The notes beneath the pieces were generated by a model. The model had not been told where the DNA came from. It saw only the letters and a list, made by a program, of their open reading frames with translations, and made no database searches. A stretch of DNA of 64,000 nucleotides from Planctomycetales bacterium (lineage in GTDB: Bacteria > 4484-113), in contig JAUWGS010000001.1 in NCBI GenBank assembly GCA_030606285.1, positions 1 to 64,000 on the forward strand. Reading direction: 5' to 3'. Positions 1,813-49,104 of this stretch are shown here, piece after piece (the first letter of the stretch is position 1; every line of letters starts with the position of its first letter). Made by a program: the position numbers and the translations under genes.

Positions 1813-2769
1813 CTACCCACGGGACTTGAGGATTTCTTCGAGCAGTAGCGGAACGACTTCTTTGCAGTCGCCGACGATGCCGTAATCAGCCACTTTGAAT
1901 ATGGGCGCGCTTTCGTTCGTGTTAATCGCCACGATGCACTTGCTGGTTTGCATTCCCGCGAGGTGCTGGATGGCGCCGGAGATGCCGCAGGCGATGTAGA
2001 GCGTGGGATTGACCGTCTTGCCCGTCTGGCCCACTTGGTGCGCATGCTCAATCCAGCCTTCATCCACCACCGCACGCGACGCGCCAACGGCTGCGCCGGT
2101 TTTTTCGGCGAAGTCGAACAGCATCTGGAAGTTCGCCGCTTCGCCGATGCCACGCCCGCCGGAAATGATGACGGTCGCTTCGCGCAGGTCGATCATCCCT
2201 GCGGCTTTTTCCGCGATGCTCGTGAGCACTGAGCGCGCTGACGTATAGTCAGGTTGCACCGTCTCGGTAGCCACTTCCGCGCCTGTGGCGTCCGAAGGAG
2301 AAAAGATGTTCGGGCGGATTGTCAGGATATGAGGCGGCTCGCCCTTGAACCTGAACTTGCCGATTATCTTGCCCGCATAGAGCGGCTTGACGAACGTGGG
2401 CGGCTCACCCGGCTCAATTGCGGTCACATCGCTCATATAGCCGACGCCGGTAGTTGCAGCCAGCCGTGCGGCGAGATCGCGCCCCAGGTTCGTCTGGCCG
2501 AAGATGATGTACGCGGGCGCTTCGGCCTCGACGAGTTTCGCAAGCTCTGCGGCAAAGGCCTCAGCGGCGTACAGCTTTCCGTTCTCGGGGGCGAGGTTCG
2601 CGAGTTTTTTCAGCCCCAGCTTACCCGCCGATGCCAGCGCTGCGTCGCTGCCGGTGGAGATGACGCCCGCAGCGCTGTCGCCGAGCATCCGGGCCACAGT
2701 CATCATTTCGCGCGAAATCTTCTTCAGCTCGTCGCCTTTCGCTTCCAGATATACCAGCGTTTTCGCCAT
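1813..2769 (-). CDS. etfA: Electron transfer flavoprotein alpha subunit
   Basis: This is the FAD-binding subunit of the heterodimeric electron transfer flavoprotein, which passes electrons between acyl-CoA dehydrogenases or bifurcating partners and other carriers in the cytoplasm. The C-terminal FAD domain is clear: GASRAVVDEGW, then QVGQTGKTVNPTLYIACG, SGAIQHLAGM and a terminal ADYGIVGD. The length of 318 aa is normal. The ATG at 2769 is chosen over the longer open frame because it has an AGGAGA ribosome site and begins MAKTLVYLE at the conserved N-terminus. It lies 10 bp behind etfB. No acyl-CoA dehydrogenase is in the window, so the electron partner is unknown. The stop is 8 bp from the convergent gene ending at 1804, with no obvious terminator between them. 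Confidence 0.95.
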   Translation of the reverse strand: MAKTLVYLEAKGDELKKISREMMTVARMLGDSAAGVISTGSDAALASAGKLGLKKLANLAPENGKLYAAEAFAAELAKLVEAEAPAYIIFGQTNLGRDLAARLAATTGVGYMSDVTAIEPGEPPTFVKPLYAGKIIGKFRFKGEPPHILTIRPNIFSPSDATGAEVATETVQPDYTSARSVLTSIAEKAAGMIDLREATVIISGGRGIGEAANFQMLFDFAEKTGAAVGASRAVVDEGWIEHAHQVGQTGKTVNPTLYIACGISGAIQHLAGMQTSKCIVAINTNESAPIFKVADYGIVGDCKEVVPLLLEEILKSRG

Positions 2770-2779
2770 CGTTTTCTCC

Positions 2780-3571
2780 TTACAGGACCTTCGCTTCTTC
2801 GCGCAGCACACGCACGAGTTCACACACGCGATCCAGCACTTCTTCACCTTCAATGATGCGACCGGGCTCTCTCGCGGGTGGGTGAGCCGCCTGAACCTCT
2901 TCGAGCCTGGCCTGGTCAGCGCCCACCGCCGTCGCATCCACGCCGGTGTCCGCGAGTTTGTGCACGGCAAAGGGCTTCTTCTTGGCCTTCATAATGCCTT
3001 TCAGCGAGGCGTAGCGCGGCGTGTTCAGGCCTTTCTCCGCCGTGATAACCGCGGGCAGGCTTCCGGTAAACGTCAGGTCGCCCTCGTCGGCCTCGGTAAC
3101 GGCGGTGAACGTCCCGGCTGCGAAGTCGGGCGTGAACTCCTTGACGACGCCCACGTGCGGCCAGTTCAGCTTTTGGGCAACAGCGATGGCGGTCAGGCCC
3201 CAGTCGTAGTCCACGCCCTGCTTGCCGGCGAAGACCAGCGTTGAATCGAGCTTCTTGACCTCGGCTGCGAGGACTTCCGCAACGGCGAGCGGATTGCCGC
3301 CGTCAATGGCTTCGTCGTCAATCACGACAGCCTCATCCGCGCCCAGCGCAAGGCAGCTCACCACCTGCTTGCGGACGCTTTCGGGTCCGACCATCAGCAC
3401 GCAGACTTTCGCGTTCTCGTCGGAGTCTTTTATCTTCAGCGCCTCTTCGAGCCCGTATTCGTCGAACGGGTTGATGACCATCTCCACGGATGACAGGTCA
3501 ACGCGCTCACTCGCCAGTGTGAGCCTGGCTTCCGTATCCGGCACAATTTTCGTGATTACTGCTATGTTCAT
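2780..3571 (-). CDS. etfB: Electron transfer flavoprotein beta subunit
   Basis: This 263-aa protein is the AMP-binding partner of EtfA and forms the cytoplasmic FAD-containing ETF with it. Family features are the N-terminal MNIAVITKIVPDTEARL, INPFDEYGLEEALKIKD near residue 35, GKQGVDYDWG near residue 115 (family form DxxTGQVP/GxQAxD) and the C-terminal GLNTPRYASLKGIMKAKKKP. AAGGAG precedes the ATG by 7 nt. It is the first gene of an etfBA operon, head to tail with etfA, and lies 169 bp downstream of the citrate synthase stop on the same strand. A hairpin at 3638-3673 separates the two. I see no Rex-like site directly upstream. Confidence 0.95.
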   Translation of the reverse strand: MNIAVITKIVPDTEARLTLASERVDLSSVEMVINPFDEYGLEEALKIKDSDENAKVCVLMVGPESVRKQVVSCLALGADEAVVIDDEAIDGGNPLAVAEVLAAEVKKLDSTLVFAGKQGVDYDWGLTAIAVAQKLNWPHVGVVKEFTPDFAAGTFTAVTEADEGDLTFTGSLPAVITAEKGLNTPRYASLKGIMKAKKKPFAVHKLADTGVDATAVGADQARLEEVQAAHPPAREPGRIIEGEEVLDRVCELVRVLREEAKVL

Positions 3572-3740: not shown

Positions 3741-5012
3741 CTATCCGCCGACCTGCTGTTTGATCCACTCAGTCGAGACCGATTTGGGTCGGGTAATGGC
3801 GGTGCCCAATGCCCGGTTGATGACCAATTGGCTGAGCATTCCCATGGCGCGGCTGACGCTGAATAGCACCGTGTAGTACGGGAACTCGGTCAGCCCGTAA
3901 TGGTAGAGCAGGGCGCCGGAACCGGCGTCCACGTTCGGCCAAGGATTCTTGGCCTTGCCGTGCTCCTTGAGCACCTTGGGCGCGACCTGGAATAGCAGGT
4001 CTACGGTCTTGAACATCACGTCATCCGCGCAGTGCTTCTTGCCGAACTCGTTGAAGGCGGTGAAGCGCGGGTCGACGACGCGCAGGACGGCGTGACCGTA
4101 TCCTGGAACGACCTGGCCCGCGTTCAACAGCTCCCAGCACATATCTGTGAGCTCTTGTTCCGTGGGCACTCCGCCGAAGCGCTCCGTGACCTTGATCACG
4201 AAGCCGAGGCACTCCTGATTCGCCAGCCCGTGCAGCGGACCCGCAAGGCCGTTCAGTCCCGCGCTAACGGCGTAGTAGGGATCGGACAACGCGCTGCCCA
4301 CGGTATGGCAGGTGTTCGCGCTCACGTTGCCGCCCTCGTGGTCGCTGTGCAGCACGAGGTAAAGGCGCATCATGTCGCGACATTCCTCGGTCTCATCCAG
4401 GCCCAGCATGTGAACGTAGTTCGCCGCCCAGTCCAGGCTCGCATCGGACGGGATGCGTTCGCCCTTGTCGTAGCGCATCCGGTACACGCCGGCGGCAAGG
4501 CCCGTGACCCTGCCGAGAATGTTCAGCGCATCTTCGAGCGCGGCTTCCCAGTACTCGGTCTTGGCCATTTCGCTGTAGCGCCGGGCGAACTCGGACTCGT
4601 GCTGCATTACCAGGATGCCGGTATCGAGCATCGCCATCGGGTGGCTCTCCTTCGGCATCGCCGCGAGTACGTCCCAGACGTATGCCGGGACATCGCTGTG
4701 GGAACTCAAATCGTCCTGTAGTGATTTCAGCTCCTCGGGGCTTGGTTTTTCGCCAGTCAGCAGCAGGAACAGGATTTCCTCCGGCAGCCAATCGGTCATT
4801 TCTAAAATCGGCGTGTCCCGGATGATCAGCCCCTTATCCGGCTCAACCACCGACGTGTCGCAGATCATGGCCTTGACTCCGCGCATTCCACCGTAAGCCT
4901 GTTTGATGCTTACGTCAGAAATGACCTGGTCCCCGTGCTCCTTACCCAATTTCTTGATGTCTTCACGAAGCCCGGGGATCTGTTGGGCTAGTTTCTCCTT
5001 AAGCAGTGACAT
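3741..5012 (-). CDS. gltA: Citrate synthase, mitochondrial (eukaryotic-like) type
   Basis: It condenses acetyl-CoA with oxaloacetate to citrate, entry to the TCA cycle. Of 423 aa, it follows the mitochondrial enzyme rather than the usual bacterial GltA: GGMRGVKAMICDTS near 41, HSDHEGGNVSANT at 222-234, GPLHGLANQE near 258, VVPGYGHAVLRVVDPR near 301, GKAKNPWPNVDAGSGALL near 352 and a C-terminal RPKSVSTEW. The catalytic triad is visible as His261, His307 and Asp362. AGGAGG stands 6 nt before the ATG. A near-consensus promoter (5181-5209) gives a leader of about 160 nt that contains a Rex-like operator at 5126-5143. Similar eukaryotic-type enzymes are known in some bacteria such as Geobacter. 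Confidence 0.95.
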   Translation of the reverse strand: MSLLKEKLAQQIPGLREDIKKLGKEHGDQVISDVSIKQAYGGMRGVKAMICDTSVVEPDKGLIIRDTPILEMTDWLPEEILFLLLTGEKPSPEELKSLQDDLSSHSDVPAYVWDVLAAMPKESHPMAMLDTGILVMQHESEFARRYSEMAKTEYWEAALEDALNILGRVTGLAAGVYRMRYDKGERIPSDASLDWAANYVHMLGLDETEECRDMMRLYLVLHSDHEGGNVSANTCHTVGSALSDPYYAVSAGLNGLAGPLHGLANQECLGFVIKVTERFGGVPTEQELTDMCWELLNAGQVVPGYGHAVLRVVDPRFTAFNEFGKKHCADDVMFKTVDLLFQVAPKVLKEHGKAKNPWPNVDAGSGALLYHYGLTEFPYYTVLFSVSRAMGMLSQLVINRALGTAITRPKSVSTEWIKQQVGG

Positions 5013-5125: not shown

Positions 5126-5143
5126 TTGTGAAGTCGTTCACAT
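5126..5143. promoter_or_regulatory. Putative Rex operator in the citrate synthase leader
   Basis: TTGTGAAGTCGTTCACAT matches the established Rex operator form TTGTGAA-N4-TTCACAA at every specified position except the last. It lies about 30-50 nt downstream of the predicted transcription start of citrate synthase, where a bound repressor could block elongation. A rex gene is at 13.4 kb. Confidence 0.7.
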
Positions 5144-5180: not shown

Positions 5181-5209
5181 ATTATAGGTGTTACCTGATA
5201 CTTAGTCAA
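5181..5209 (-). promoter_or_regulatory. Sigma-70 type promoter of citrate synthase
   Basis: Read on the minus strand: TTGACT (5209-5204), a 17-bp spacer, then TATAAT (5186-5181). This is the best canonical promoter in the window. Transcription would start near 5174 and leave a long untranslated leader. Confidence 0.8.
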
Positions 5210-5340: not shown

Positions 5341-5877
5341 CTAGCTCAGAGACTCGACAACAATCTCGGAGTTGGTGTAGATGCAGATTCCGGCGGTGAT
5401 TTCAAGGGCGCGGCGGGCGATTTGCTCCGCTGAGAGCTTCTTGTTCTCCGACAGAGCCTTGGCTGCCGCAAGCGCGTATCCAGCGCCGCTGCCGATGGCG
5501 GCGAAATCCTCGTCCGGCTCGATGACCTCGCCGGTGCCTGAGATCAGGAGCATTGTATCGCTGTCGCAGGTGAGCAGCAGCGCTTCAAGGCGCCGCAGGT
5601 ACTTGTCGGTGCGCCATTCCTTAGCCAGCTCCACAGCCGCGCGGCGAAGCTCCTTGAACTGCTTGAGCTTGGCCTCGAAGCGCTCAAAAAGCGTGAGCGC
5701 ATCGGCCACCGCGCCGGAGAATCCCGCAATGACCGAACCCTCGGCCAGCAGCCGGATTTTCCTGGCCTTGGTCTTGAGGATCATGTCGGCGTGAGTCACC
5801 TGGCCATCGCCGGCGATGGCGACGGTACCGCCCCGGCGCATGGCGCATATGGTCGTCCCGCGATACTCGGTCTCCAT
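5341..5877 (-). CDS. hslV: ATP-dependent protease proteolytic subunit HslV
   Basis: HslV is the peptidase dodecamer of the HslUV (ClpYQ) cytoplasmic protease, an N-terminal threonine hydrolase. The 178-aa protein has METEYRG then TTI, so Thr8 would be exposed after propeptide removal, as in relatives with an F-H-G-TT start. Further family marks are VAIAGDGQVT, VIAGFSGAVADALTLFERFE, ELAKEWRTDKYLRRLEA, AIGSGAGYALAAA and the terminal GICIYTNSEIVVESL. The unfoldase gene hslU, normally adjacent, is absent from this window. There is no Shine-Dalgarno site; an extended -10 box lies 6 nt from the ATG, so the mRNA is probably leaderless. Confidence 0.93.
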   Translation of the reverse strand: METEYRGTTICAMRRGGTVAIAGDGQVTHADMILKTKARKIRLLAEGSVIAGFSGAVADALTLFERFEAKLKQFKELRRAAVELAKEWRTDKYLRRLEALLLTCDSDTMLLISGTGEVIEPDEDFAAIGSGAGYALAAAKALSENKKLSAEQIARRALEITAGICIYTNSEIVVESLS

Positions 5878-6041: not shown

Positions 6042-9000
6042 ATGTCTCGCAGGAAGATACTCGCTGTTTGGGCAGTCGTCATCGCACTGACGGTAATACT
6101 CGCGCTGATTCTTGCCGCGTGCGGAAGGCATTGCGGGCAGGTCACACAGCTCTCGCTTGCGCCGCCGACAATTGAGCAGCCGGCGGAGGAACAGGACTCA
6201 GATGATGGCGGCGTGCTGCCGCCGGTGCTGGAGCTGGACGGATGCATTGCGGTGTCGCGTGAGGTGTCTGAGGACGACACCAGGACCAGCCAGGGCTGGG
6301 AGGCGTATAGAGACGGACAGACCGGCACCAATGGCACGTCTGGACTGAACGTGGAGACCGAGGGTACAGCGCTAACGCTGCGAGCTTACACTGCGGGCGA
6401 ATACGCCTACGCTGTCTATGGCCAAGCTGTAGGTGCAGTCCTGAAGCCACTGCAGACGCTGATTGACAGCGACCCCTGCGCCTTCGGTGGCGGGCAGGAC
6501 GACGACATACCGCTATCGTATTTCGTGGGCGCGGCGGACTACAGCCGAGGCTCATGGCGCTGGTTCGGGCCGTTTGGCGAAGAAGACGTGATGGTAACAA
6601 TGAACTCGGAGATGCTGCGCAGCCGCTTCAAATCGCCCAACGGGAACTTCTATCTGTGCGTGCTGGCGAGTAACGGCAGCAAGGCTGCAAGCGCACTGCC
6701 GGAGGAAGGCTTGGTGGCGAACTTCCCGCTTGCGCCGAGCACACGAAGGATTTCAGCGCAAGACAATGATCCTGGCGGCCTAAAGGTCAAGGAGATCGTC
6801 ACATGGGTGCGAGAGAACCTGTATATGGAGCCTGCGGTGGTGACGGGGCTTTCAGTGAGCACCTCCACGGCTGGCGTAACGCTGGACTGGGACAAGAACC
6901 CCGATCCTGACGTGGACATCTATCAGATATTCCGCCGGGACGCGGACACGGAAGATCCCGGAGAGATGATAGCCTCGGTCTTTGCTACGCGCACCTACCT
7001 TGCGGACTCGAAGGAGGACCCACTCTGGCAGATATACCCCTGGGAAGTGGGCGTTCCAGGGAAAGAATATGAATACAGCGTTCGCGCACGCAACGATGCG
7101 GGCTACGGCGGATACAGCATTGTGACCGGCATTCGGCTGATGACTGCTCCGACGGTAGACGCATCGGACGGCGCGTACAGCGACCATGTGCGAATCGACT
7201 GGACGGCTGTCGAGGGCGCTGAGGGCTACTCGGTGCTGAGGGCGGACACGATAGACGGCGCGAAGATTGAGCTGGCATCCACTGATTCTGAGACATTTAC
7301 TTACAACGACTACGATGTCGTTCTCGAAAAGGGTTACTACTATTGGATTCAGTCTTCAGGCGAAGATATCGTGGGGCCGCTTGGCGGGCCGGATGCGGGA
7401 TTGGCGCTGGAGCTTGAGCCGTTGCAGGTAATAGCGACGGACGGGGACTATCCCGACCGGGTGGAGCTCATCTGGGGTGAGAGTGACGCGCCGCTGCTGG
7501 AGTATTACAGCGTTTACCGGGACACGGACGAGGTCGAAGGAGGAGAGGAGTTCCTGGGATCGGTTACTCCGCCGGAGCACGCATGCACAGACTACACTGC
7601 GCCGTGGGATGAGCCGCGCTTCTACTTCGTAAGGCCATTCACGGGAAGTGAGGGTGATCCCGGCACTGGAAACTGGGGGCACCGAGGACTGGCAGTGCCC
7701 GGTAATGTGACTGCGACGCAGGGGACATTTGCCGGCAAAGTTGTTGTTAGCTGGGACGCGGTGAATCAGGCAACGAGGTACCGGGTGTATCGCGGTGCGT
7801 CAGCGGGCGACCCGTCGCCCCAATACTTGGGTGAGGTGCCAGCGCCCGCTATGAGCTACCAGAACCCTACGGCGCAGTGGGACGTACACTACTTCTACTC
7901 GGTCTTGGCTTTACACACGGGGCCTGATGACGAGGCCAGCGACCTGAGCGAGCCCGCCGAAGGCTGGCGCGGCACTGGGATACCGGAGAATGTCTCAGCA
8001 ACCGACGGCACAAAGAAGGCATCGGTGAACGTCTCGTGGAATGCGGTATCGCAGGCGACGCACTACCGGGTGTACCGCAGCGAGACGGAGAACGACCCGA
8101 CGCCAACATTGCTCAATACAGTATCAGCGCCTGCGACCGGCTACACTGACAACGCAGCCGCGCATAACACGCTTTACTGGTACTGCGTGAGCGCGCTCTA
8201 CAAAGGCGACGAAGGCGCAAAAAGCGCTGACGACAGCGGCTATCGCGGCCTGTCTCCGCCGCTGAATGTCCAGGCGTCAGACGACTTAGAAGACACAATC
8301 GAGATAACCTGGAGCAGCGTGACCGGCGCGACGGGCTACATCATCTGCCGGTCGGAAACCGACACCGGCACCTACACCGAGATCGGCACCGACGACGCCA
8401 GTCCATATCTGGACGGCCCGTTTACTCCGCCCGTCATCTACTGGTACAAGCTCAAAGCCACCAATTCGTTGGCGACGAGCGCCTTCAGCAACGCCGATGA
8501 AGGGAGTGTGGGAGGAGACCTCCGCGGCGACTGGTGGATGTTTGGGCGCGAGCCAACGCACAATCGGAGAAGCCCTTATGTTGGAGCACAAACAAACAGT
8601 CTCAAGTGGAGACATCCCATTGGCGACTTCGTGAAATCCAGTCCTGCGATAGGCGCTGATGGGACTGTCTATGTGGGCAACGACTGCGACCTCAGTGCGA
8701 TCAGACCTGATGGGACGCTCAAGTGGGAATACCAGACGGAGGACCAAGTAGACAGCAGTCCGGCAGTTGGCGAAGACGGCACCGTGTACGTGAGAAGCTG
8801 GGACGGCTATCTCTACGCAATCAAACCCGACGGGTCGCTCGACTGGAGATGCCAGACGGGTGAGGCAACGGGGAACTGGGTGGATTCAAGCCCTACCATA
8901 GGTGAGGATGGAACCATCTACGTGGGAAGCTTCGACGGCGACCTGTGCGCCATCAAGCCTGATGGAACGCTCAAATGGCGGTATGAAACCGGGAACGGCG

Positions 9001-10193
9001 TGTATTCCGGTCCAGCCATAGGTTCAGACGGCACCATCTACGTGGGAAGCGATGATTACTACATTTATGCTATCAAGCCAGACGGGACGCTCAAATGGCG
9101 ATTCGAGACCGATTCATACGTGGATGCGAGCTCGGCAATTGGCGCAGATGGCACGGTTTACGTGGGGAGTTTTGATGGAAACCTGTATGCTCTCAGGCCC
9201 GATGGAACGCTCAAGTGGAGCTATGAGACCGGGGGGGGTGTGTACTCCAGCACCGCGATAGGGGAAGACGGAACCATCTACGTAGGAAGTGATGACGACT
9301 ACCTGTACGCCATCAGGCCCGATGGCTCGCTCAAGTGGAGATATCAGACGGATGATAGTGTGCTCTCCAGTCCGGCTGTAGGCGCAGACGGGACAATCTA
9401 TGTGGGAAGCTGGGGCGGCTTTCTCTACGCCGTCAATCCGAACGGGACGCTCAAGTGGATGGCTGACACCGGGGGCGAGATCTGGTCCAGTCCGGCCATA
9501 GGCGCTGACGGAACGGTTTATGTTGGCTGTGACGATGGCTATTTGTTTGCTTTCAATGCAGTAGTCGAGCAGCCTCCCACTATTTGCTCAGTGAGTCCCA
9601 TAGTAGGGCAAGAAGTAGAACCTGTTACGTTCTCTGCTGAGGTCTGGGGGACGCAGCCATTCGCCTATTCCTGGGACTTCGGTGGTGGTGCAACTCCGAA
9701 TACTAGCAGCGAAACATCGCCCACGGTTACCCTCGGAGTGCCGGGCAGTTACGATGCTTCGCTGGATGTTACAAATACGTATGGTGAAGATACGTTCGGA
9801 TTCACGCTCACGGTGAACGAACCCGGTGATTACGACGAGGTAGAGGACAATGACAGCCCGAGCAAGGCGAATCAACTTCCCTCGTTCGACTTCAGCAGCT
9901 TCACAGGAAGCCTGGGTCCCGGCGGATACGACGGCGATGATCACGACTGGTTCGAGTTCACCGCTTCCGTTGACGACACCGTGAAGCTGTGGATGCATTT
10001 GGACTCTGGCACCGGGGACCTCGATATAGAGCTGGAGGACAGCGATGGCATTTATCTCGACGGCTCCGGCGGCATCGGGAACGAGGAGTACATTGAGTAT
10101 ACGTTCCAGGTGGGCGACACATCGCCCTTCTACCTTCACGTCTACGCCTATAGCGGCTACTCGGACTACATCATTGTTGGTCATCTCTTTTGA
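6042..10193 (+). CDS. Giant lipoprotein: fibronectin-like, eight-blade PQQ propeller, PKD, PPC domains
   Basis: The 1383-aa protein starts at an ATG with AAGGAGA 9 nt upstream. A membrane segment and lipobox LAAC (Cys27) predict a lipoprotein. After an N-terminal domain shared with the protein at 45.5-49.0 kb (FGGGQDDDIPLSY, YSxGSWRWFGPF), several fibronectin III-like modules run from about 263 to 823. Then comes GDWWMFGREPTHNRRSPY near 829 and eight PQQ-type blades (core SSPAIGADGTVYVGS...LYAIKPDGTLKW) at about 865-1170, a PKD-like domain (YSWDFGGGATPN) at about 1177-1260 and a PPC-like C-terminus (EDNDSPSKANQL...DWFEF). PQQ-type blades often serve as scaffolds without cofactor, so enzymatic activity is not implied. 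Surface binding is inferred. The UGA stop is followed in frame by another header and blade. Confidence 0.85.
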   Translation: MSRRKILAVWAVVIALTVILALILAACGRHCGQVTQLSLAPPTIEQPAEEQDSDDGGVLPPVLELDGCIAVSREVSEDDTRTSQGWEAYRDGQTGTNGTSGLNVETEGTALTLRAYTAGEYAYAVYGQAVGAVLKPLQTLIDSDPCAFGGGQDDDIPLSYFVGAADYSRGSWRWFGPFGEEDVMVTMNSEMLRSRFKSPNGNFYLCVLASNGSKAASALPEEGLVANFPLAPSTRRISAQDNDPGGLKVKEIVTWVRENLYMEPAVVTGLSVSTSTAGVTLDWDKNPDPDVDIYQIFRRDADTEDPGEMIASVFATRTYLADSKEDPLWQIYPWEVGVPGKEYEYSVRARNDAGYGGYSIVTGIRLMTAPTVDASDGAYSDHVRIDWTAVEGAEGYSVLRADTIDGAKIELASTDSETFTYNDYDVVLEKGYYYWIQSSGEDIVGPLGGPDAGLALELEPLQVIATDGDYPDRVELIWGESDAPLLEYYSVYRDTDEVEGGEEFLGSVTPPEHACTDYTAPWDEPRFYFVRPFTGSEGDPGTGNWGHRGLAVPGNVTATQGTFAGKVVVSWDAVNQATRYRVYRGASAGDPSPQYLGEVPAPAMSYQNPTAQWDVHYFYSVLALHTGPDDEASDLSEPAEGWRGTGIPENVSATDGTKKASVNVSWNAVSQATHYRVYRSETENDPTPTLLNTVSAPATGYTDNAAAHNTLYWYCVSALYKGDEGAKSADDSGYRGLSPPLNVQASDDLEDTIEITWSSVTGATGYIICRSETDTGTYTEIGTDDASPYLDGPFTPPVIYWYKLKATNSLATSAFSNADEGSVGGDLRGDWWMFGREPTHNRRSPYVGAQTNSLKWRHPIGDFVKSSPAIGADGTVYVGNDCDLSAIRPDGTLKWEYQTEDQVDSSPAVGEDGTVYVRSWDGYLYAIKPDGSLDWRCQTGEATGNWVDSSPTIGEDGTIYVGSFDGDLCAIKPDGTLKWRYETGNGVYSGPAIGSDGTIYVGSDDYYIYAIKPDGTLKWRFETDSYVDASSAIGADGTVYVGSFDGNLYALRPDGTLKWSYETGGGVYSSTAIGEDGTIYVGSDDDYLYAIRPDGSLKWRYQTDDSVLSSPAVGADGTIYVGSWGGFLYAVNPNGTLKWMADTGGEIWSSPAIGADGTVYVGCDDGYLFAFNAVVEQPPTICSVSPIVGQEVEPVTFSAEVWGTQPFAYSWDFGGGATPNTSSETSPTVTLGVPGSYDASLDVTNTYGEDTFGFTLTVNEPGDYDEVEDNDSPSKANQLPSFDFSSFTGSLGPGGYDGDDHDWFEFTASVDDTVKLWMHLDSGTGDLDIELEDSDGIYLDGSGGIGNEEYIEYTFQVGDTSPFYLHVYAYSGYSDYIIVGHLF

Positions 10194-12643: not shown

Positions 12644-13369
12644 ATGTTAGAAGGACAGGGTGGGAAGCAACAACGGGTGCAGCGAGTCTTCAGAAGCATA
12701 GCTACCCGCTACGACCTTCTGAATACGCTGATGACCTTTGGCCTGCATCGACGCTGGCGGCGCGCGAGTATCCGCCTGGCTGGTGGCATGCCTGAGGGCG
12801 GCAGCGGGCTTGACCTCGGATGCGGCACCGGTGATTTCCTGCATGAAATGCTGGTTTCTAGCGACAACACGGCTGTCGTTACCGGTGTGGATTTCACCAG
12901 TGAGATGCTCGCGGTTGCACAACGGCGGTTTGCAACGGAGATCGAGCGTGGAATCGTCAAGCTTGTGCTCGGCGATGCGACCGACCTGTCGTTTCTGCCC
13001 GACGCCCGTTTCGATATGGTGACCGCCGGTTTCACGCTGCGCAATCTCGCAGACCTGCCCCGGGTACTCGGTGAAACCCACCGCGTAATGAAGCCCGGCG
13101 GCGTCCTTGTCAGCGTCGAAGTGTGCCGGCCCTTCCGCGTATGGCTGCGCCCGCTGGCGGAACTCTACCTCCGATTCGTCGTTCCCGCGATTGCCACGCT
13201 GGTCGCTGGGAAGATTGGGGAGTACCGCTGGTTGCACGAGAGCCTGGCCACCTGCCCGGACAGGTATGAGCTGGCCAGAATGCTGGAGGCTGCGGGATAT
13301 GCCGAGGTACGCCAGGTTCCTTTCGGGTTGGGAGTGGTTGTGGGGCACATCGCCCGTAAACCTTGTTAA
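12644..13369 (+). CDS. menG: Demethylmenaquinone/ubiquinone C-methyltransferase (UbiE/MenG)
   Basis: This SAM-dependent enzyme methylates demethylmenaquinone (or the ubiquinone precursor) in the last steps of respiratory quinone synthesis. The 241-aa protein shows the family opener VQRVFRSIATRYDLLNTLMTFGLHRRWR, the SAM loop LDLGCGTGD, VTGVDFTSEML, GDATDLSFLPDARFD and FTLRNLADLPRVLGE with RVMKPGG. It starts one base after the mutL stop, suggesting co-transcription and coupling; the in-frame region upstream lies within mutL. Whether the product serves menaquinone or ubiquinone cannot be told, but menaquinone is likelier in an anaerobe. Confidence 0.9.
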   Translation: MLEGQGGKQQRVQRVFRSIATRYDLLNTLMTFGLHRRWRRASIRLAGGMPEGGSGLDLGCGTGDFLHEMLVSSDNTAVVTGVDFTSEMLAVAQRRFATEIERGIVKLVLGDATDLSFLPDARFDMVTAGFTLRNLADLPRVLGETHRVMKPGGVLVSVEVCRPFRVWLRPLAELYLRFVVPAIATLVAGKIGEYRWLHESLATCPDRYELARMLEAAGYAEVRQVPFGLGVVVGHIARKPC

Positions 13370-13448
13370 GGCGTTTGCAAACTCCCTGCGCTATGGTATC
13401 CTTAATACTAAGGGATTTTAAACACAAACTCACTTGGCGGGAGGGGCT

Positions 13449-14168
13449 ATGGCAAAGCGTAAGGAGAAGGCGGCAAAAACCGCAGCCAGAAGCGGCCGCC
13501 CAAAAAGTCCGTCCGGTTCCAGCAGGAAGCAGGGCAGGGCAGTCAAGGGCGAAATCCCATATTCAACCGTCGTCAGGCTGGCGCAATATCTCCGAATCCT
13601 CGAACGTCTGCAGACGGTTGGCACCGGTAAGATTAGCTCAAACGAGCTTGCGCGCGAGGCTAAAGTCAACTCCTTTCTTGTTCGCAAGGACCTCTCCTAC
13701 TTCGGGGAATTCGGTGTACGCGGTGTTGGCTACGAGATTAAGAAACTCATCCGCGAGGTGCGCAAAATCCTCGGCTTGAACCGGGAGCGCCGTGTTGTTC
13801 TGGTGGGTGTGGGCCACCTCGGCAAAGCTCTCCTTTCCTACAAGGGATTCGCCGAGGAGGGATTCTGCATCTGCGGGCTGTTCGATAGTGACCCCGCGAA
13901 GATTGGCACAGCTGTTCGCGAGCTGGAGGTGCGGAGCATCTTCACGCTGGATGATTTCGTCAAAGGTAATGGCGCGGTTGAGATTGGGATCATCGCAGTG
14001 CCGGCATTCTCGGCTCAGTTTGTCGCTAATACTCTTGTTGCGGTCGGCGTGAAGGGGCTGCTCAACTTCGCGCCGATCCCGCTGACTGTGCCGCCGCACG
14101 TGATTACCGTGTCCGTTGACCTGACAACCAACCTGGAAGTTATCAGCTACTACCTGTCGCAAAGATAA
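13449..14168 (+). CDS. rex: Redox-sensing transcriptional repressor Rex
   Basis: Rex binds DNA when NAD+ is high and releases it when NADH rises, controlling fermentation and respiration genes. The 239-aa protein has a basic Lys/Arg/Ser-rich N-terminal tail (1-34) longer than usual, a winged helix with IPYSTVVRLAQYLRILERL and SFLVRKDLSYFGEFGVRGVGY (35-95), then the Rossmann core GVGHLGKAL at 120-128, FDSDPAKIG and a C-terminal domain-swap helix (VDLTTNLEVISYYLS). The ATG at 13449 is preferred for its GGGAGGGG ribosome site. A perfect 10-bp palindrome, GTTTGCAAAC, stands at 13373-13382 just after menG. Likely targets in the window are citrate synthase and buk-ptb. Confidence 0.95.
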   Translation: MAKRKEKAAKTAARSGRPKSPSGSSRKQGRAVKGEIPYSTVVRLAQYLRILERLQTVGTGKISSNELAREAKVNSFLVRKDLSYFGEFGVRGVGYEIKKLIREVRKILGLNRERRVVLVGVGHLGKALLSYKGFAEEGFCICGLFDSDPAKIGTAVRELEVRSIFTLDDFVKGNGAVEIGIIAVPAFSAQFVANTLVAVGVKGLLNFAPIPLTVPPHVITVSVDLTTNLEVISYYLSQR

Positions 14169-40932: not shown

Positions 40933-40970
40933 GCGTTTCACTAGCTCCGACCCACCAGCTTCGCCAGCGC
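40933..40970. repeat. 38-bp direct repeat, copy D (native ptb 3' end)
   Basis: This is the original copy. It spans the last ten codons and stop of ptb (40941-40970) and 8 bp beyond. It is identical to 39098-39135. Confidence 0.85.
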
Positions 40971-41846
40971 CGCTGAGAGTAGGTTGGCTTCCGGGGGTGC
41001 GGCTCGTGAGACCAGCAGCACCGGCGCGACGCCACCCACAACCAGCCCGAGCATGAACGTCTTCGTGTAGTAGAGCACCATCTTCACGGCGATATTGCAG
41101 GACTCCAGGTTCGGCACGACAACGATGTCGGCGTCGCCGGCAATCGGCGTGTCGATATCCTTCACCTTCGATGCTTCGGGGTCGAGCCCCAGGTCCACTC
41201 CGAACGGCCCGTCAATCACTGCGTCGGGCCATTCGCCGTCGCGATGTCGCTGTACTATCTTGCGCGCATCCGCGATTGCCGGTATGTCCTGGCCCGTGTC
41301 TTCCATGCCTGCTGCGAGGATGACTTTGGGTCTCTCGATGCCGAGCCGGTGGGCGACGACAACGGCGTTCTGCATGATCTTAATCTTCTCTTTGAGGCTC
41401 GGCAGGACGTTCATCCCGCCGTCCGTGACCTGCAGCAGCTTGCCTGCGCGCGGGTTCTCAATCACCGCCGTATGCGAGAGGAAGTAGCCGTGTCCCTTTA
41501 TCTTCTCCTCGCCCGTGTGGAGAACGGCCTTTAGCAGCTCGTTGCTTTTTACATTGCCCTTCATAACGAAGGATGCTCCACCCGATAGGCACAGGCGCAC
41601 CGCTTCGGCTGCAATGTCGGCTGCTGGTGCGGGGTGTATCCTGGCGCGTTCTGGTCGTTCCTTGGCCTGTGCGAGCGTATCCTCTATGGACGCCGGATCC
41701 CCGACGAAAACACAGTTGGCGATGCCTTCGTGTTCCGCCAGGTGTGCGAATTCAACGGCTCCGCCGGAATCACCGCCGGCGATGGCGATGACGGCGGGAT
41801 CACCGCTGCGTGCTGCTTTCTTGAGTTCAGCGAAACTCGTTATCAT
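40941..41846 (-). CDS. ptb: Phosphate butyryltransferase (phosphotransbutyrylase)
   Basis: It converts butyryl-CoA and phosphate to butyryl phosphate, the substrate of butyrate kinase. The 301-aa protein belongs to the PTA/PTB family: AGGDSGGAVEFAHLAEHEGI near the start, FVMKGNVKSNELLKAVL, a TDGGMNVLPSLKEKIKIMQNAV core, VDGPFGVDLGLDPEAS-type segment and ADIVVVPNLESCNIAVKML-like VPNLESCNIAVKMVLYYTK. The ATG at 41846 is 6 nt from GGAGG. It follows buk by 23 bp, so buk-ptb is an operon with a Rex-like operator at its promoter. Acetyl or other acyl groups are possible alternative substrates. Confidence 0.9.
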   Translation of the reverse strand: MITSFAELKKAARSGDPAVIAIAGGDSGGAVEFAHLAEHEGIANCVFVGDPASIEDTLAQAKERPERARIHPAPAADIAAEAVRLCLSGGASFVMKGNVKSNELLKAVLHTGEEKIKGHGYFLSHTAVIENPRAGKLLQVTDGGMNVLPSLKEKIKIMQNAVVVAHRLGIERPKVILAAGMEDTGQDIPAIADARKIVQRHRDGEWPDAVIDGPFGVDLGLDPEASKVKDIDTPIAGDADIVVVPNLESCNIAVKMVLYYTKTFMLGLVVGGVAPVLLVSRAAPPEANLLSAALAKLVGRS

Positions 41847-41869
41847 CACAAGCCTCCGGGAATGGGCGT

Positions 41870-42976
41870 TCAGCCCTTATAGGTGCGGACGCGTTCTTCG
41901 CCCGCCAGCGCGGCATTGGCTGCTGCTGCGAGCGCCTCCATCTCGTTCTCGCCCGGGTAGACCAGGACTTTCCCGAGCCACTTGATGTACTTCTTGAGGT
42001 CGCTCACCAGCTTAGACGAGTGCGCCAGCCCGCCGGTGATTATGACTGCGTTGTGCGCACCGAAAAGCGGCACGGCGTACATGCCGATGTTCTTTGCGAT
42101 CTGGTAGACCATTGCCGAGTAGATGAGTTTGGCCTGCTTGTCGCCGCCGACAACGCGCTCAAGCACCTCCGGCAGGTCGCTGGTGCCGAGATAGCCGGCG
42201 AGACCGGATTTCTTCACCAGAAGCTTCTTCAGCTCGCCGTCCTCGTGCTTGCGCGCCAGCTCGACGACTCCCCGAAGCGGCAGCACTCCTGCACGCTCCA
42301 CCGAGAACGGCCCTTCGCCGAGCATGCCGTCGGCGTTATCGATGATGCGGCCGTTCTTGACGCTTGCGATGGTGAAGCCCGAGCCGAGATGCGCCACCAC
42401 GAAACTCGCTTTATTGAAGGCGATGCCCAGTTCCGCCGCCGCGCGTTTGCACATCGCGCGCACATTCAGAGCGTGCAAACGGCTCACGCGCTCAATGCCG
42501 GGGCAGCCTGAGACCCGCGCGACATCGCTGAACTCGTCCACTACAACCGGATCCGCGACGAAGGCGGGAACTCCCGTATCCTTCGTCAGCTCGTGCACGA
42601 GCAGCGCGCACAGATTGCTGGGATGCTCACCGTGTTTGCTCGCACGCAGGTCTTCCAGCATCTTCCGGTTTATGCGGTACACGCCGGCGGGAAGTGGCGC
42701 AAGCAAGCCACCCCGGCCGATGACGGCGGCGAACTTGTTTAGTTTCGCTCCGATAACCTTGAGGAACGAGCGCACCTGCTCTTCGCGCCCCGGAAGCTCA
42801 TCCGCGATGCGCTTGACGCCCAGAGGCGGCGTGAACATCAGGTTCTCCTGGTGCACTACTGCATTGCCGGAGAAGATGGCGAGCTTCGTGCTCGTTCCGC
42901 CCATGTTAACCACCAGAACGCGCCCGAGCTGCCTGTGCCGGGATTCTGTTGCTCTTGTCGATTTGCTTTTCATCAT
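41870..42976 (-). CDS. buk: Butyrate kinase
   Basis: This cytoplasmic acetokinase-family enzyme makes ATP and butyrate from butyryl phosphate. The 368-aa protein has VVNMGGTSTKLAIFSGN at the N-terminus, VVDEFSDVARVSGCPGIER, ALNVRAMCKRAAAELGI, VVAHLGSGFTIASVKNGRII, DADGMLGEGPFSVERAG-like NADGMLGEGPFSVERAG and a C-terminal NAVIITGGLAHSS. A 25-residue polar N-terminal extension precedes the kinase start. ATG at 42976 is followed by a second ATG. A promoter at 43136-43164 and a leader of about 150 nt stand before it. Divergent from infC. Confidence 0.92.
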   Translation of the reverse strand: MMKSKSTRATESRHRQLGRVLVVNMGGTSTKLAIFSGNAVVHQENLMFTPPLGVKRIADELPGREEQVRSFLKVIGAKLNKFAAVIGRGGLLAPLPAGVYRINRKMLEDLRASKHGEHPSNLCALLVHELTKDTGVPAFVADPVVVDEFSDVARVSGCPGIERVSRLHALNVRAMCKRAAAELGIAFNKASFVVAHLGSGFTIASVKNGRIIDNADGMLGEGPFSVERAGVLPLRGVVELARKHEDGELKKLLVKKSGLAGYLGTSDLPEVLERVVGGDKQAKLIYSAMVYQIAKNIGMYAVPLFGAHNAVIITGGLAHSSKLVSDLKKYIKWLGKVLVYPGENEMEALAAAANAALAGEERVRTYKG

Positions 42977-43129
42977 AAAGCTTCCGGCGCAGGGAAGTGG
43001 AGCATTACACGCCTGCGTTGCACGGCCGCATGTGACAGGAGCCTGCATCCCTGGGACTCTGGCCGCGAACGGCGGTGGAAGAGACCCCCTCCGGTGGATG
43101 TTCTGTGACCTGACAAGCCCCGTTCCCGC

Positions 43130-43147
43130 TTGTAATTTATATCACAA
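43130..43147. promoter_or_regulatory. Putative Rex operator over the buk -10 box
   Basis: TTGTAATTTATATCACAA is an inverted repeat with arms TTGTAAT and TTGTGAT (six of seven alike) around a 4-bp centre, the spacing of Rex sites. The -10 box of the buk promoter (43136-43141) lies inside it. Confidence 0.6.
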
Positions 43148-45537: not shown

Positions 45538-48500
45538 CTAATAATAGAAGGCGTACTTGAGGTTTCCGTTGGTGTAGTCGACGTAGCTAATGGCGGGGTT
45601 GCCGTTGACTATCGCGAGGGAGGCGTTCCCGCCCACACCTGCGCTGTCCACGGTTTGTGGTGTTCCCCAGCTACTTCCGCTGGCATCGGTTGCCCGCACA
45701 TACTTGAGGTCGCCGTTGGTGGCGTCGAGGTAGCCAATGGCCGGGTAGCCATTGACAATCGCGAGGGATGTACCCTCGATGCCCACATCCCCTTCGCTAT
45801 CCACCGTTACCGGGCTTCCCCAGATGTTCCCGCTGGCATCGCTCGCCCGGACATACTTGAGGTCGCCATTGGTCTCGTCATAGTAGCTAATGGCGGGATT
45901 GCCATTGATAATTGCCATGCGCGCGTAGTGGCCCACATCTCCCTCGCTATCCACCGTTACCGGGCTTCCCCAGATGTTCCCGCTGGCATCGCTCGCCCGG
46001 ACATACTTGAGGTCACCGTTGGTCTCGTCGTAGTAGCCAATGGCGGGGTTGCCATTGACAATTACCAGGGATGTGTACGGACTGCAGTCGTAAGTACTTC
46101 CGATGCTATCCAAAACTTCCGGGCTTCCCCAGCTTGCTCCATTTGCATCAGTCGCCCGCACGTACTTCAGGTAGGCGTTGCCGTCCTTGTCATAGTAGCT
46201 AATGGCCGGGTTGCCATTGACCACACAGAGCGAGGTCCCGGTCCCGGTGCGCACCGCCCCCCCGCTATCCACGGTTACCGGCGTTCCCCAGCTACTTCCA
46301 TTCGCATCAGTTGCCCGAACATACTTGAGGTCGCCGTTGGTGTCGTCGAAGTAGCTGATGGCGGGGTAGCCATTGACAATCTCGAGGGAGGTATCCCATC
46401 CCACATCCCCGTCGCTATCCACGGTTATCGGGCTTCCCCAGCTTGCGCCGGCGGGATCGCTTGCGCGCACATACTTGAGGTCGCAGTTGCCCCAGTCAAA
46501 GTAGCTAATGGCGGGCTTACCGTTGACAGCAGCAAGCGAGCTGTGCGTGCCCACATTATCTTCGCTATCCACGGTAACTACCCTCCAGTGGTATCCCGAA
46601 TCATTAAAGGCGTAGAGGTAACCGTCATGGCTTCCCACATAAACCGTCCCATCAGCGCTTATCGCTGGACTGGAGTCGATATAGCCGCCCGTCTGGTATC
46701 GCCACTTGAGCGTCCCTTCAGTCTCGCTATCAGTGATGGCGTAGAGGTAGAAGTCCTCGCTTCCCACGTAAACAGTTCCATCAGCGCCTATCGCCGGGCT
46801 GGACTCCACATAGCCGCCAGTGACGTATTTCCACTTGAGCGTTCCATCTGGGTCTATGGCGTAGAGGTAACCGTCATGGCTTCCCACATAAATCGTCCCA
46901 TCGGCGCCTATCGCTGGACTGGAGAGAATGACTTCAGTAGGAGGAGAGCCGCCTTGCTCTGTCATGTACTCCCACTTCTTGGTCCCCTCAGTCTCATTGT
47001 CGATGATGGCGTAGAGATAGCAGTCATGGCTTCCCACATAAATAGTCCCATCGGCGCCAATCGCTGGACTGCAGTCCACCATATCCCCCGTCTGATATTT
47101 CCACTTGAACATCCCATCGGAGTTGATGGCGTGGAGGTAGCCGTCCTCGCTTCCCAGGTAGACAGTCCCATCTGCTCCTATCGCTGGACTTGACTGAGTC
47201 TTCCAGCCCGTCTCGTAGCGCCACTTGAGTGTGCCGTCAGGCTTGATGGCGTAAAGGTAATTGTCTTCGCTTCCCACATAGATGGTTCCATTGGCGGCTA
47301 TCGCCGGACTGGAGGGCACACAGTCACCGGTCGGGTATCGCCACTTTAGCGTCCCTTCAGTCTCGCTATCAGTGATGGCGTAGAGGTAGTTGTCCATGGT
47401 TCCCACATAGATAGTCCCATCCCGGCCTATCGCAGGACTGGAGAACACAGGGCCTCCAGTCTCGTATCGCCACTTGGGCGTACCGTCAGGATTCACAGCG
47501 TAAAGGTATTTGTCGCAGCTTCCCGCGTAGATAGTTCCGTCGGCGGCAATTGCGGGGCTTGAGATTACAATACCTTCAGTTTGATAGCGCCACTTGAGAC
47601 TTGCAGTTTGCGTTCCCACGTAAGGACTTCTACGGTTGTGCGTCGGCTCGCGTCCGAACATCCACCAGTCACCGCGCTCAGGCTCAGGCTCATACACCGT
47701 GAGCGTGAAGGGGAATGTGTCGTCGCCGTGCGCGTTCGTCAAAATAAGCGAACCACTGTAGCTCTCCGGGTCACCCAGGACCACTATCGGCCTGGCCTCG
47801 GTGCTGGTGTTGGGCGTCGCGCCGCCGCCGAAATCCCATTCGTAAGTGAACGGCTGGCTTCCTGAGACTATCGCGGCGAACTTCACCAGGGCGCCCTCGC
47901 TGCCCGATGTCGGGCTGACACCTCGAATCACCGGTGGGCCGACGTTAACGTATCCCATGCCGCCGGGCCCGACATCGTTTACCGCCTGCACGCCGTAGAC
48001 GTAGGTTACGCCGGCTTCGGCGCTCATATCGTCATACCCGGTCGTCGGGGCTGCTACTGAATCAAGCCATACCGGCGGCCCTTCAATCCCCGCTTCCTTG
48101 CGGTAAATCTCGTAGCTGGTCACGTCCGGGTCGGGATTCACGTCCCAGCTAAGCGCGATCCTGTCGGCTTCGATGCTCGCCACAAGCCCGGTCACTATTT
48201 CAGGCACCGTGCCGATGCCGCTGTCTGCGTCGGTCACGACACGAACGATTGTTACACCACAGGCGTCTTCACCGGATTGGGAGGCGTTTCGCAGTCCTGC
48301 CGCAAATGGAAGCTTTCCCACCAGCCCATCTTCCGGCAGCCGGCTTGCAGCCTTGTCGCCGCTGGCTGTGAGCACTGCCAAGTACAAGTTGTCGTTGGGT
48401 GACTTGAACCGATTTTTAAGCGTGTCGGTATTCAGATAGGCCGTCTCGTCGTTATCGCTAAACGGCCCGAACCAGCGCCACGAGCCGGCACTGTAGTCTG

Positions 48501-49011
48501 CCGCGCCTACATAATACGATAGCGGTATGTCATCGTCCTGTCCGCCGCCAAAGCTGCAAACTTCGCTGTCAATCAGGGACTGAAGGGGAACGTCGTCGTC
48601 CTGCCCGCCTCCCCACTCGCCGTCTCCGATCTGCTGCACAAACAGGGCATAGGTGTATTCGCCGGGCTCATAGGCTCTGAGATGCAGCTCCGAGCCATCG
48701 ACTTCAATGCTGTATTCGCGGTCGCTGGTACTGCCCGAGCCTTCGGGAGAGTAATCGGAGCCAAAGCTGATTACCTGGGATTCGGCGCGCACGCCTTTTG
48801 GCGCATTGACCATTAGCTCGTCAAGCGCCATCACCGGCGGCAGGACTCCGCCACCTGACTCCTGTCCTTCAGCAGACTGTTCAGTCGCAGGAGTCAGCGA
48901 AAGCTGCATCACCTGCCGCGCGCGCTTTCCACACGCGGCAGAAATCAGCACGAGTATGACCGTCAGCGCGATGATGACTGCCCAAGCAGCAAATATCTTC
49001 CTATGAGACAT
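45538..49011 (-). CDS. Giant lipoprotein: eight-blade PQQ propeller plus seven PAISY repeats
   Basis: The 1157-aa protein starts at MSHRKIFAAW with GGAGAGGGG upstream; the lipobox is SAAC (Cys27). The N-terminal domain (about 30-260) is shared with the 6.0 kb protein (FGGGQDDDIPLSYYVGAADY). Then come a fibronectin-like module (270-350), a PKD-like domain (YEWDFGGGATPN, 357-440), GDWWMFGREPTHNRRSPY near 450, eight PQQ-type blades (470-797) and seven repeats of about 50 residues with core SLAIVNGNPAISYYDETNGD and LKYVRA (800-1157). The seven-unit part matches the repeats of the protein at the window start. A TATAAT (49056-49061, minus strand) lies about 45 nt upstream. Long plus-strand frames here are antisense shadows. 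Role unknown, surface exposed by inference. Confidence 0.85.
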   Translation of the reverse strand: MSHRKIFAAWAVIIALTVILVLISAACGKRARQVMQLSLTPATEQSAEGQESGGGVLPPVMALDELMVNAPKGVRAESQVISFGSDYSPEGSGSTSDREYSIEVDGSELHLRAYEPGEYTYALFVQQIGDGEWGGGQDDDVPLQSLIDSEVCSFGGGQDDDIPLSYYVGAADYSAGSWRWFGPFSDNDETAYLNTDTLKNRFKSPNDNLYLAVLTASGDKAASRLPEDGLVGKLPFAAGLRNASQSGEDACGVTIVRVVTDADSGIGTVPEIVTGLVASIEADRIALSWDVNPDPDVTSYEIYRKEAGIEGPPVWLDSVAAPTTGYDDMSAEAGVTYVYGVQAVNDVGPGGMGYVNVGPPVIRGVSPTSGSEGALVKFAAIVSGSQPFTYEWDFGGGATPNTSTEARPIVVLGDPESYSGSLILTNAHGDDTFPFTLTVYEPEPERGDWWMFGREPTHNRRSPYVGTQTASLKWRYQTEGIVISSPAIAADGTIYAGSCDKYLYAVNPDGTPKWRYETGGPVFSSPAIGRDGTIYVGTMDNYLYAITDSETEGTLKWRYPTGDCVPSSPAIAANGTIYVGSEDNYLYAIKPDGTLKWRYETGWKTQSSPAIGADGTVYLGSEDGYLHAINSDGMFKWKYQTGDMVDCSPAIGADGTIYVGSHDCYLYAIIDNETEGTKKWEYMTEQGGSPPTEVILSSPAIGADGTIYVGSHDGYLYAIDPDGTLKWKYVTGGYVESSPAIGADGTVYVGSEDFYLYAITDSETEGTLKWRYQTGGYIDSSPAISADGTVYVGSHDGYLYAFNDSGYHWRVVTVDSEDNVGTHSSLAAVNGKPAISYFDWGNCDLKYVRASDPAGASWGSPITVDSDGDVGWDTSLEIVNGYPAISYFDDTNGDLKYVRATDANGSSWGTPVTVDSGGAVRTGTGTSLCVVNGNPAISYYDKDGNAYLKYVRATDANGASWGSPEVLDSIGSTYDCSPYTSLVIVNGNPAIGYYDETNGDLKYVRASDASGNIWGSPVTVDSEGDVGHYARMAIINGNPAISYYDETNGDLKYVRASDASGNIWGSPVTVDSEGDVGIEGTSLAIVNGYPAIGYLDATNGDLKYVRATDASGSSWGTPQTVDSAGVGGNASLAIVNGNPAISYVDYTNGNLKYAFYY

Positions 49012-49104
49012 TAGCCCCTCTCCCCGCGCCCATATCCGGCGCACAAGCTAATCAGATTATACCATCGCGAGACAACAGCAAGAACGTGGTTCGCGTGGTG
49101 ATCG

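Follow-up and report, generated by a model that had tools for sequence, protein, structure and literature searches.

The gltA–etfBA locus and its predicted operator

The window (the whole 64,000-nucleotide stretch that was analysed) carries on its minus strand gltA (3741–5012), encoding a eukaryote-type citrate (Si)-synthase of 423 amino acids (NF007128, 544 bits against a cut-off of 344). It is followed after 169 bp by etfB (2780–3571, minus strand) and then by etfA (1813–2769, minus strand, with its ATG at 2769), which encode the beta and alpha subunits of an electron transfer flavoprotein, respectively. The host (G000) was compared with a sister species of the same genus (G001), a member of another genus in the same family (G002), four order mates (G003–G006), and two class mates (G007 and G009). 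In G001 etfB also lies behind gltA, and etfA is unchanged in arrangement and length; in G002 etfB does not follow gltA. Immediately upstream of gltA and in the same direction lies hslV (5341–5877, minus strand), an arrangement that the sister species shares; no adjacent hslU was noticed.

A gltA promoter was assigned to 5181–5209 (minus strand), where TTGACT (5209–5204) and TATAAT (5186–5181) are separated by a 17-bp spacer. It agrees with the promoter consensus at 11 of 12 positions, is identical in the sister species and similar in G002, and is the only promoter-like match found between 4990 and 5400. Transcription was assumed to start 7 nt past the −10 hexamer, at about 5174, and positions of the palindrome relative to the start depend on this assumption. 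Within the leader so defined, at 5126–5143 (about +32 to +49, no strand assigned), lies the palindrome TTGTGAAGTCGTTCACAT, a predicted Rex-type operator. It differs from TTGTGAANNNNTTCACAA in the last base alone and thereby matches the 18-bp inverted repeat TTGTGAA-N4-TTCACAA, the consensus form of Rex sites, with a single mismatch. No other match with up to one mismatch was found by pattern search, either in the window (of 100 dinucleotide shuffles, 0 contained one) or across the 2.30-Mb genome, and none occurred in six simulated genomes matched for size and composition. The sequence-only reading had described a Rex site with one differing position, placed 30–50 nt past the start set by a TTGACT-17-TATAAT promoter, in front of a citrate synthase gene and 8 kb from rex; all of this is borne out, the distance to rex (13434–14168) being 8.3 kb.

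The nearest named relatives of the gltA product come from MAG GMC4.metabat2.94 (92%) and MAG 4484_113 (87%). Because GTDB uses 4484-113 as its placeholder name for Candidatus Niteriota (PMC11382960), the host is probably a member of this candidate phylum, a placement drawn from one protein and from names.

Conservation of the gltA site

The site is equally far from the gltA start codon in the host, the sister species, and G002, where it reads ATGTGAACGACTTCACAA, ATGTGATTGGTTTCACAA, and ATGTGAGCACGTTCACGA, respectively. Column by column, the three leaders are invariant at 11 of 12 positions in the arms, compared with 1 of 6 in the spacer and 38 of 135 elsewhere (p = 2e-5). Invariant arms with a variable spacer are the pattern expected of a protein-bound dyad. 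The sequence-only reading had made its proposal depend on conservation of the 18-mer upstream of gltA in related genomes. The dyad is kept in the genus and the family, and comparable sites occur in the class mates (two near-matches apiece before gltA in G007 and G009) and in many Zixibacteria; the order mates G003–G006 possess rex, yet have no site before gltA.

A wider survey covered 78 orthologous gltA loci in named genomes. Perfect copies of W-TGTGA-N6-TCACA-W within 200 bp upstream of gltA were present at 18 loci (the sister species and 17 others), and 21 loci had a copy with at most one mismatch. Control searches at gltA loci, using further-upstream stretches, intragenic stretches, and the reversed pattern, returned no perfect site. 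Genomes with a perfect gltA site are mostly labelled Zixibacteria. The presence of rex was set against that of the gltA site by eye in 50 genomes, several of them incomplete, and most have rex. It was not found in G002 (77% complete), although this genome keeps the gltA site, and was not found in G098 or G114.

The Rex protein and sites adjoining rex

The rex gene (13434–14168, plus strand) was identified by NF003993 (250 bits against a cut-off of 217), closes a mutL-ubiE-rex run, and encodes the one clear Rex in the genome. The domains of its product stand in the required order, with a winged helix (PF06971) at residues 40–88 and a Rossmann NAD(H) domain (PF02629) at 117–214, and its recognition helix and wing, RKDLSYFG..G.RGVGY, are identical in T-Rex (3ikt/1xcb). 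In S. agalactiae Rex, the base-contacting residues are Arg50 and Arg51 in the recognition helix and Arg62 in the wing (PMC8376106), in that protein's own numbering. A Rex-like site before host rex, TTGTTAAGGCGTTTGCAA (13363–13380, no strand), has three mismatches and a counterpart in G001 that is weaker still; assigned with low confidence, it was dropped as evidence as too weak.

Each of the three Zixibacteria genomes examined contains exactly three perfect copies of WTGTGAAN4TTCACAW. One lies at gltA and one just upstream of rex; the third precedes a gene for an Fe-S protein followed by an NrfD/HybB-like gene in two genomes and an ABC transporter in G103. With one of only three perfect sites in each genome at gltA, the predicted coupling of citrate synthase to Rex may belong to the core of the regulon in Zixibacteria. 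As a separate observation, G007 and G009 each encode a second, divergent Rex-like protein (33–36 bits) besides a normal Rex.

Other predicted Rex sites in the host and its relatives

Sites elsewhere in the genome were sought by pattern searches and in chosen stretches, and matches inside apparent genes were left aside as probable chance occurrences. The pattern TTGTGAN6TCACAA was found 10 times in the host with at most one mismatch, against 2.8 in simulation, and 56 times with at most two, against 40; Rex-type sites with two to three mismatches are little above chance. Nine of the host's ten best sites lie upstream of mdh, oadGAB, gdhA (two in one intergenic stretch), ald, gltA–etfBA, buk–ptb, kor, and nifJ, and the remaining one is intragenic. 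In the sister species, eight of the nine best sites precede genes of these same kinds; the mdh site was looked at in the host only. Weaker, two-mismatch sites that could be paired, among the matches listed, precede nuoA, a VorB-type oxidoreductase, a NuoE/HoxE-type operon, and icd (isocitrate dehydrogenase). The sites at the NuoE/HoxE-type operon and at icd (TTGTAAAAGCGCGCACAA) are each identical in the host and its sister species. In G002, sites are retained at gltA, kor, buk, and the NuoE-type operon, and TTGAGATTCAAATCACAA precedes aconitase. Each of the first three steps of the TCA cycle is thus associated with a predicted Rex-like site somewhere in the family of the host.

Within the window, a further Rex-type site, TTGTAATTTATATCACAA (43130–43147, no strand), overlaps the likely −10 element of the buk–ptb operon. 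Every letter of it is identical in G001, and buk of G002 is preceded by TTGTGATATTTTTAACAA. As the longest open reading frame, buk (butyrate kinase; TIGR02707, 387 bits) spans 41870–43048 on the minus strand, with the true start probably further in, at about 42976. The neighbouring ptb (40941–41849, minus strand) is phosphate butyryltransferase-like, its best match being NF004472 at 214 bits, under the cut-off of 399. The names given to ptb, ald, mdh, nuoA, and the NuoE/HoxE-type genes all go with profile scores under the curated cut-offs, and oadG, the nuo order, purC, and some further genes were recognised by eye. The glutamate dehydrogenase (gdhA) scores best as the NADP type and so may not use NADH directly. 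Taken with these sites, 5126–5143 is very probably one of about a dozen that would place NADH-consuming and central-carbon operons under one sensor.

Predicted mode of action and alternative readings

We consider it highly likely that 5126–5143 is an operator of the Rex encoded at 13434–14168, which would bind at low NADH, hinder the polymerase, and release at high NADH. What the sequences themselves provide is the site, its rarity, the conserved dyad, the rex-adjoining motif of Zixibacteria, the set of NAD(H)-related targets, and the finding of no CRP/FNR-type regulator in the host or sister genome, and these observations support the Rex operator that the sequence-only reading had proposed; Rex binding, the response to NADH, repression, and a roadblock at gltA are predictions. 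Weighing the other way are the order mates that have rex yet no gltA site, the genomes in which rex was not found (G002, G098, and G114), the weakness of the site at host rex, the fit of the core to CRP, and the near-chance counts of sites with two to three mismatches. Both the consensus and the response to NAD+ and NADH have been described (PMC2883068, PMC8376106), and elsewhere Rex binding is favoured by NAD+ and weakened by NADH (PMC8376106). By analogy, when NADH is low relative to NAD+, a Rex dimer would occupy the site 32–49 bp downstream of the gltA start and hinder RNA polymerase leaving the gltA promoter. As NADH rises, Rex would let go and gltA would be transcribed, in the genus of the host probably together with etfBA.

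A roadblock at gltA is plausible but would not be special to this gene, because the ald site (about +41) and probably the nifJ and nuoA sites (read by eye) also lie downstream of their promoters, and repression from downstream has been proposed in S. avermitilis. It is possible, if on balance doubtful, that Rex binds the gltA site but blocks initiation, or activates, and poses no roadblock to a moving polymerase. Rex sites in the host genome stand before, on, and after promoters: by eye, those of buk, vor, mdh, and the NuoE-type operon are on or next to a likely promoter, and that of korD is just upstream of one. Sites in S. aureus are in or near promoters (PMC2883068), and the Zixibacteria gltA site, also read by eye, falls close behind the −10 hexamer of a TTGACA-type promoter, at about +1 to +25. 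The host site, however, at about +32 to +49, is past the usual footprint of a starting polymerase, and at S. avermitilis wblE repression has been proposed from a site as far downstream as +108 to +135 (PMC5355995).

Regulation by a member of the CRP/FNR family, which would make gltA responsive to cyclic AMP or another signal, is very unlikely. The core TGTGA-N6-TCACA is that of CRP sites, perfect in the host and its sister species and with one mismatch in G002, and the host genome does encode a cNMP-binding protein whose C-terminal part resembles a cyclase. In S. aureus, for its part, the Rex motif was originally written as TGTGA-N6-TCACA (PMC2883068). No cNMP-fold protein with a C-terminal CRP helix-turn-helix was found in G000 (91% complete) or G001 (88%), and the CRP/FNR reading is disfavoured because no such regulator was found in these two genomes. 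The sole cNMP-binding protein of the host lacks a helix-turn-helix, the sole one of G001 has the same length, and the two clear cNMP proteins of G002 likewise lack this motif. HTH_Crp_2 reaches only about 27 bits in G000 and G001, in unrelated proteins, compared with 71 bits for a genuine CRP in G008. The identical perfect motif upstream of rex in Zixibacteria and the predominance of NAD(H) enzymes among the targets also argue against a CRP/FNR site.

Two further observations concern cNMP proteins. The one in the host joins a cNMP-binding domain to a nucleotide-cyclase-like domain, and in G007 and G009 the gene for a similar-sized protein with a cNMP domain lies about 5 kb or less from rex.

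It is extremely improbable that the palindrome works at the RNA level, as a hairpin in the gltA leader, and not as a DNA operator. It does fall within the transcribed leader and can fold into a hairpin of 6 bp, but the whole leader folds no better than its shuffles (z = 0.38), and for want of any excess fold this explanation was rejected; moreover, at korD, vor, and buk the palindrome lies upstream of or across the promoter and would be untranscribed or not wholly transcribed. A chance palindrome, conceivable when the motif is short, the genome large, and sites with two to three mismatches are not much commoner than expected, has a probability close to negligible given the rarity of the site, its conservation, and its recurrence before orthologous gltA genes, and was rejected by the controls (shuffles, simulated genomes, and gltA control stretches).

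Comparison with known Rex systems and physiological meaning

The comparative study of Ravcheev et al. 2012 (J Bacteriol 194:1145) reportedly found the consensus TTGTGAANNNNTTCACAA across several phyla, with targets in central carbon metabolism and hydrogen production, and the phyla it covered are said not to include Niteriota or Zixibacteria. In the open-access literature that was searched, citrate synthase was not found as a recurrent Rex target. The S. aureus regulon is alike in its operator, TTGTGAA-W4-TTCACAA, and in targeting NAD+-regenerating dehydrogenases, including alanine dehydrogenase; it differs in belonging to a Gram-positive bacterium and in the promoter-proximal position of its sites, and citrate is unmentioned in the paper (PMC2883068). 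The Streptomyces avermitilis regulon shares nuo as a target and has some operators past the start of transcription, for which inhibition of polymerase progress was proposed, whereas the organism is an aerobe with the respiratory targets cyd, atp, and nuo, and citrate is again unmentioned (PMC5355995). Closer in lifestyle is Caproicibacterium lactatifermentans, a butyrate-type fermenting anaerobe, for which Rex sites are predicted before the operons acn-icd-rex and ldh-etfBA-bcd; as described there, the motif is of the clostridial form TTGTTAA-N4-TTAACAA, and the TCA link is through acn-icd, not citrate synthase (PMC9600882).

With Rex taken as the regulator, many of the predicted targets consume NADH, namely the NuoE/HoxE-type module, nuo, butyrate formation with etfBA, and the alanine, glutamate, and malate dehydrogenases. 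These targets point to an anaerobe that gets rid of NADH by forming hydrogen, butyrate, alanine, glutamate, and malate. In it, gltA and icd can supply 2-oxoglutarate to gdhA. We regard it as very unlikely that Rex turns on a reversible TCA module at high NADH (gltA, icd, kor, nifJ, and mdh with the hydrogenase-type module and nuo), so that citrate synthase would serve a reductive, NADH-consuming cycle and not TCA entry. We know of no link between Rex and the reversed oxidative TCA cycle of Desulfurella. This system is similar in that Desulfurella is an anaerobe with the citrate-synthase version of the cycle, which is revertible, and there the citrate synthase reaction runs backwards (PMC9768450).

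With high probability, 5126–5143 is a genuine Rex operator, and the predicted regulon to which it belongs is newly seen but of a known kind. Its interest lies in the predicted tie of citrate synthase to Rex, which recurs across two uncultured phyla. Control of citrate synthase by Rex appears, from the sites found, to recur in a second such phylum. These predictions would extend Rex regulation to the uncultured phyla Niteriota and Zixibacteria and put the enzyme at the entrance to the TCA cycle, citrate synthase, under predicted NADH control there, and the target set can inform attempts at cultivation or work in a laboratory host.

Apart from the regulon, the window contains two very long, related, lipoprotein-like open reading frames, at 6042–10193 (plus strand) and 45538–49044 (minus strand). 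Both have repeats of the form 'SSPAIGADGTIYVGS', PQQ-propeller-like by eye, together with fibronectin-like segments, and similar repeat proteins are encoded elsewhere in the genome and in G001.
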